From the IMG/VR virus record IMGVR_UViG_3300028178_000015, positions 1 to 29,009 of that record: a stretch of DNA of 29,009 nucleotides. One strand, written 5' to 3'. This stretch comes from a virus. The notes below the pieces were generated by a model. It did not search any database. It had not been told where the DNA came from and saw only the letters and a list, made by a program, of their open reading frames with translations. Made by a program: the position numbers and the translations under genes. Shown here piece after piece: positions 28,078 to 28,368 of this stretch (position 1 is its first letter; each line of letters starts with the position of its first letter).

Positions 28078-28292
28078 AAATTCATCCAATTAAATATAAA
28101 ATTACTACAGACACCAAAAATGATAAAGTAACAAGTAATTTTTTCAAGTTTTGTCATAGCAATAAGGAGGGGCGCAAATAGGGAGACCGCTACCGCGCCC
28201 CAATGGGCTGATACCAACCAAGGAAATACCAGCACCGCTAATTCTAAAAAACCCCAAGGCCGTTTATCTAATTTAGTGTTGTTATGCGACAA
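27969..28292 (-). CDS. Hydrophobic membrane ORF, possibly frameshifted
   Basis: A TTG-initiated ORF of 107 codons. The first 62 residues are convincing as a membrane protein: KRPWGFLELAVLVFPWLVSA and GAVAVSLFAPLLIAMTKLEK, two hydrophobic helices. The rest overlaps the Cys-rich gene in another frame and looks like shadow sequence. At a run of six A (28139-28144) the +1 frame instead continues as KLLVTLSFLVSVVILYLIG and stops with TGA at 28082, giving a tidy three-helix protein of about 70 aa. So either a +1 event, a mutation or a sequence error lies at the A-run. The TTG start sits inside the hairpin loop described nearby and has a poor ribosome site, so the true start is uncertain. Confidence 0.5.
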   Translation of the reverse strand: MSHNNTKLDKRPWGFLELAVLVFPWLVSAHWGAVAVSLFAPLLIAMTKLEKITCYFIIFGVCSNFIFNWMNLCTHATQTIKIKNTTPIHRKTVYVGLTVDIQKLTKV

Positions 28293-28313
28293 CGAAAATC
28301 AGCAGCCTTGGGG
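28246..28313 (-). terminator. Hairpin plus T-run: intrinsic terminator, attenuator or end of a small RNA
   Basis: On the minus strand a perfect 9-base inverted repeat, CCCCAAGGC (28313-28305) and GCCTTGGGG (28260-28252), is followed at once by six T (28251-28246), the pattern of a Rho-independent terminator. The 44-base loop has its own small hairpin (GTTGT / ACAAC, 28293-28278). Just upstream, GGG at 28323-28325 could pair with the first C-rich arm (GGG-TGAGTTT-CCC), an alternative fold that would open the terminator. A 27-codon ORF beginning at 28350 runs across the element. Together with the promoter at 28340-28368 this defines a transcript of roughly 88 bases. Confidence 0.6.
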
Positions 28314-28339
28314 AAACTCACCCTTAGTAAGTTAAACGT

Positions 28340-28368
28340 ATTAAAACACATCCTATTTAGAATTGCAA
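28340..28368 (-). promoter_or_regulatory. Candidate sigma-70-type promoter upstream of the hairpin
   Basis: On the minus strand, -35 TTGCAA (28368-28363), a 17-base spacer, and -10 TTTAAT (28345-28340) with the extended TGn at 28348-28346. The likely start is near 28333. It is the best complete promoter match I found in the window and lies over the end of the 77-aa gene. It would drive the hairpin RNA and, if read through, the genes below it. Confidence 0.5.

Follow-up and report, generated by a model that had tools for sequence, protein, structure and literature searches.

Results

Gene neighbourhood of the element

The window, by which we mean the entire record of 29,009 bases that was analysed, carries every plausible gene of its open reading frame (ORF) list on the minus strand, and it comes from a tailed phage, with PHROG matches to terminase large subunit, portal, head, tape measure and tail proteins. 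The phage is a mosaic: one tail protein (3705-5930, minus strand) is closest to Pseudomonas siphophages, e.g. PSP2 and LKO4 (39%), and the nearest terminases are those of Aeromonas phage 56 (43%) and Roseobacter phages (38%). Ahead of the terminase genes lies a cluster of small genes, composed of a nuclease-like gene (28695-28982, minus strand) for a small VRR-NUC or Holliday-junction-resolvase-like protein (phrog_824, phrog_5702), a tiny 31-aa ORF (28589-28684, minus strand) with a good codon score and a membrane-spanning look, and a 77-aa ORF. Family searches with the 77-aa ORF gave no match, and its structure model is barrel-like and of low confidence (pLDDT 64). Its sequence matches in the PDB were designed repeat propellers and lectins, of which no stretch passes alone, and they were therefore not used. 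The features referred to below are:

25926..27434, minus strand: terminase large subunit (phrog_38, E = 1.5e-80)
27421..27819, minus strand: probable terminase small subunit, resembling the ORF before terL in contig L002
28098..28157, minus strand: conserved start of a micro-peptide (MTKLEKITCYFIIFGVCSNF), with third-position changes relative to contigs L084, L085 and L089
28246..28251, minus strand: U6 tract directly 3' of the stem, the expected RNA 3' end as read from the sequence
28252..28313, minus strand: terminator hairpin with a perfect 9-bp outer stem (CCCCAAGGC/GCCTTGGGG), from folding and shuffle statistics
28315..28333, minus strand: small 5' hairpin (AACUUACU/GGUGAGUU) in the putative leader, 8 bp, -5.5 kcal/mol
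28340..28368, minus strand: weak promoter-like site TTGCAA-17-TTTAAT with TGT before the -10, at chance level
28353..28586, minus strand: 77-aa ORF directly upstream of the terminator, no family match, small barrel-like model of low confidence

A stable hairpin and U-tract ahead of the packaging genes

Read along the minus strand, the element consists of a putative start near 28333, AACUUACUAAGGGUGAGUUU, CCCCAAGGC, a 44-nt loop, GCCUUGGGG and six U. The two arms (CCCCAAGGC, 28313-28305; GCCUUGGGG, 28260-28252) form the outer stem, in which 7 of 9 pairs are G-C; T6 follows directly, and the loop contains an inner GTTGT/ACAAC hairpin. The sequence-only reading had described this stem, loop, inner hairpin and T-tract, all of which are present at the coordinates it gave. 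In the predicted fold the hairpin is longer still, with 11 + 7 + 5 pairs and a 5-nt bulge. The folding energy of the RNA is -33.0 kcal/mol, compared with -17.2 +/- 3.0 kcal/mol for shuffled sequences (z = -5.3; none of 200 shuffles was as stable), and the terminator hairpin by itself reaches -27.7 kcal/mol.

A standard terminator scan missed the hairpin because it allowed loops of 3-8 alone. When both strands of the 29 kb were scanned for perfect stems of 7 bp or more that include four or more G-C pairs, a loop of at most 60 and at least five T in the following six positions, the terminator unit was the sole match. Dinucleotide shuffles gave an expectation per strand of 0.2 units for stems of at least 7 bp and of 0.025 for stems of at least 9 bp, the latter corresponding to approximately 0.05 units by chance over the whole window and both strands. 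The unit is co-directional with the genes; it lies approximately 40 nt beyond the stop of the 77-aa ORF, and 0.8 kb separate it from the terminase large-subunit gene downstream. The earlier proposal of an intrinsic terminator is thus well supported: a GC-rich stem is followed by a U-tract, stability and frequency are beyond chance, and the unit lies downstream of a co-directional gene.

Just past the terminator, positions 28160-28250 form a GC-rich island (50-58%, where the window as a whole has 37%) that contains an inverted repeat, GGGGCGC/GCGCCCC (28169-28175 and 28195-28201). These downstream hairpins were considered as part of a larger structured RNA and rejected (fold z only -1.8). The TTTTTTA heptamer that ends the hairpin was likewise dismissed as a slippery site, there being no upstream frame long enough for a frameshift product.

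The upstream promoter-like site is at background level

The element had been read as a transcription unit with a near-consensus extended promoter. The motifs (TTGCAA, 28368-28363; TTTAAT, 28345-28340), the 17-nt spacer and the TGn are indeed there, and a start near 28333 would yield an RNA of approximately 88 nt; 'near-consensus' did not survive closer inspection. The two hexamers match the consensus at 4/6 and 5/6 positions, and a T replaces the conserved A at position 2 of the -10, which is why a standard promoter scan omits the site. With a weight matrix of approximate frequencies for promoters of E. coli, which may not be the host, 19 sites on the strand outscored it, and local composition-preserving shuffles predict 18.3 sites that score at least as high. 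Its -35 moreover overlaps the final codons of the 77-aa ORF. Because the site is indistinguishable from background, a discrete 88-nt small RNA is unproven. Further promoter-like sites downstream (28125, 27889 and 27853), candidates for a promoter of the packaging genes, are also at chance level, and that at 28125 overlaps the conserved peptide described below.

The proposed competing fold is energetically poor

Pairing of an upstream GGG with the first arm had been put forward as a competing fold. This GGG-CCC pairing comprises 3 bp, costs at least 11 kcal/mol when forced and would keep the terminator stem largely intact; the most stable fold places the GGG inside the small 5' hairpin. The pairing was rejected as an antiterminator, and an attenuator with two competing RNA folds is left without a second fold of comparable stability. 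Antitermination by a protein is conceivable.

No match to C4 antisense RNA

C4 RNA acts as an antisense RNA on ant mRNA, to whose ribosome binding region it binds (PMC12197685), and the shape of the element had suggested a link to the C4/CI antisense RNAs. The Rfam C4 model (RF01695) gave no match to the element up to E = 10, and other weak Rfam matches, including RAGATH-13, were rejected (E = 3.6-9.3, far under gathering scores). A target search did not reveal a convincing antisense target either. Between the 88-nt RNA and the window's own transcripts, complementarity extends over at most 12 nt, at a site in the tape-measure gene; at 33 gene starts, duplex energies were within background (best -38.4; background 1% -40.6, 5% -36.0), and C4-type complementarity of the loop to a gene start was found nowhere within the window. 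Membership in the C4 family was thus rejected on the features tested, i.e. model match and loop complementarity.

A conserved membrane micro-peptide is encoded downstream

A frame of 107 codons (ORF 27969-28292, minus strand) opens at TTG 28292, inside the hairpin loop, and stays open through the second arm and the U-tract. From Met46 (28157) onwards it matches a 29-residue membrane peptide in three viral contigs (L084, 4007; L085, 4001; L089, 3001), with the shared pattern M-x-x-LEKITCYFII-x-GV. The counterpart of Met46 is the first residue of the peptide in these contigs, where its coding sequence opens immediately behind the stop codon of the gene before it; the next gene is terS-like in L084 and L085 and nuclease-like in L089. 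A comparison of codons 4-16 in the window with those of L084, L085 and L089 gives 7, 6 and 13 base differences, and 6, 6 and 10 of these, respectively, fall at third positions. That the changes are mostly at third positions is strong evidence for translation from approximately Met46 on, whereas codons 1-45 have codon scores at background and 28292 is not preceded by a Shine-Dalgarno sequence. We therefore favour a start at 28157, judging by these sequence comparisons. With this start the terminator lies in an untranslated gap; with a start at 28292, its second arm and the U-tract would be part of a coding sequence.

The micro-peptide, whose coding start is 88 nt downstream of the U-tract, would accordingly be the first well-supported coding sequence after the terminator. 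It found no match in 50,697 phage records, Pfam, PHROGs or NCBIfam and possibly represents an unannotated family of tiny membrane proteins. It is a more unusual object than the nearby terminator.

L089, too, carries a nuclease-like gene, which adjoins the micro-peptide there. The window further contains a 63-aa cysteine-rich ORF (27898-28089, minus strand; TTG start; C-x-..-C and CSNC motifs) that overlaps the end of the frame encoding the membrane peptide. L084 and L085 also have a small cysteine-rich ORF; there it lies ahead of the micro-peptide, in the opposite order.

Search for relatives of the element

Relatives of the terminase, with up to 74% identity, were found in viral contigs, bacterial genomes and cultured phages; the terminator element was absent from all those searched. 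A DNA search of phages with the element returned nothing, a covariance model built from the single sequence detected no homologue in 65 loci (573 kb), and a search of viral contigs with a single tool found relatives of neither the 77-aa ORF nor the probable terminase small subunit. These missing relatives do not count against function. Two contigs, L082 and L083, share the 9-bp stem CCCCAAGGC/GCCTTGGGG followed by T4, but were rejected as homologues: the loop is unrelated, the stem lies between two convergent genes of another phage with at most a marginal terminase match, and their terminators scored 15 bits (E ~3) in the covariance search. A 22/24-nt match to the loop in L079 was attributed to chance (E = 0.022 in 0.7 Mb).

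In two cultured phages with related terminases, the gap adjoining terS holds a compact hairpin followed by T, unrelated in sequence to the element:

Aeromonas phage 56 (JQ177063; L110), 3260-3277: hairpin and T-tract just before terS
Roseobacter phage CRP-901 (OQ401623; L111), 481-498: hairpin and T-tract just before terS

Among 47 relatives, terminators upstream of terL numbered 6 compared with approximately 3 expected, which is not a significant excess.

Discussion

The element is most probably, at a rough probability of 0.62, an ordinary intrinsic (Rho-independent) terminator at the boundary of the small-gene cluster with the packaging genes. Polymerase traversing the cluster on the minus strand would transcribe the GC-rich hairpin and U6 and release the RNA at approximately 28246, thereby setting the cluster apart from the downstream genes for packaging and structural proteins; the packaging genes would then be reached by partial read-through or from a downstream promoter of their own. 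We infer termination in the cell from the hairpin, the U-tract, the statistical excess, the orientation and the place of the unit shortly after a stop codon. Some observations speak against a plain terminator: what the outer stem encloses is not a short loop but a long hairpin with a bulge, a coding frame could cover the terminator if TTG 28292 were used, and there is neither a homologue nor a significant excess of terminators near terL in the relatives.

The main rival is a regulated late leader, in which a short RNA from the upstream promoter stops at the terminator until a phage antiterminator, acting either at the promoter, as Q does, or on the polymerase, as P7 does, permits read-on into the packaging genes. 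The order of promoter-like site, short leader, terminator and packaging genes fits such a design, and the 77-aa ORF directly upstream is a candidate antiterminator by position alone. We nevertheless regard this as unlikely, given that the promoter scores at chance level and that family searches recognised no antiterminator in the neighbouring ORFs (the record ends at 29009). A bolder version, which we consider a long shot, is that of a new leader RNA without Rfam relative, whose hairpin would be opened by an unknown phage antiterminator, perhaps the barrel-like 77-aa protein, to switch on the packaging genes. Only under the control of an antiterminator would the element have a bearing on the timing of late genes in such phages.

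Action on translation instead of termination is improbable, more so than the regulated leader. Here the hairpin would belong to the structured 5' leader or early coding region of a small membrane protein that starts at TTG 28292, and would hide or expose this start. The frame has no stop within the hairpin, residues 12-45 appear to span the membrane and conservation sets in at Met46, but the background codon score of residues 1-45, the missing Shine-Dalgarno sequence and the Met46-equivalent start in all three contigs argue against it. We see very little room for a chance hairpin without function: the lack of homologues would suit it, but not the scarcity of such units in shuffled sequence, the fold z-score or the co-directional place directly behind a stop codon. 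The reading as a C4-type antisense small RNA that acts in trans is equally hard to credit. In its favour are the size, approximately 88 nt, and the inner hairpin enclosed by a closing stem; the empty model search, the lack of a target in the window and a location at packaging genes instead of an immunity region speak against it. As the record may be a fragment, a target may lie outside it, and for this reason we keep 'works like C4' at a few percent.

The element resembles the C4 antisense RNA of P1/P7/P4-type phages (RF01695) in length, approximately 88 nt compared with 87 model positions, and in having an inner hairpin within a closing stem; it differs by its genomic setting and by having neither model match nor target. 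Phage lambda Q opens tR', the terminator of the 6S RNA leader. AlpA (at tB) and lambda Q act at promoters that terminators follow (PMC7969949), and P7 of Xp10 opens intrinsic terminators ahead of late genes (PMC6624301). The likeness to these systems lies in a promoter-like site, a short leader and a terminator ahead of late genes; the window differs in that it is without a significant promoter or a recognised antiterminator. Similar in arrangement are the terminators of phage 56 and CRP-901, which are compact with tetraloops, whereas that of the window is a bulged hairpin of 62 nt, two small ORFs upstream of terS. Given two cultured examples and a non-significant excess, a terminator at this place is a familiar arrangement and not a rule. 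All three have a GC-rich stem and U-tract, co-directional with the genes, in the gap ahead of the packaging genes, and in this uncultured tailed phage the element likely marks a transcription-unit boundary at that place.
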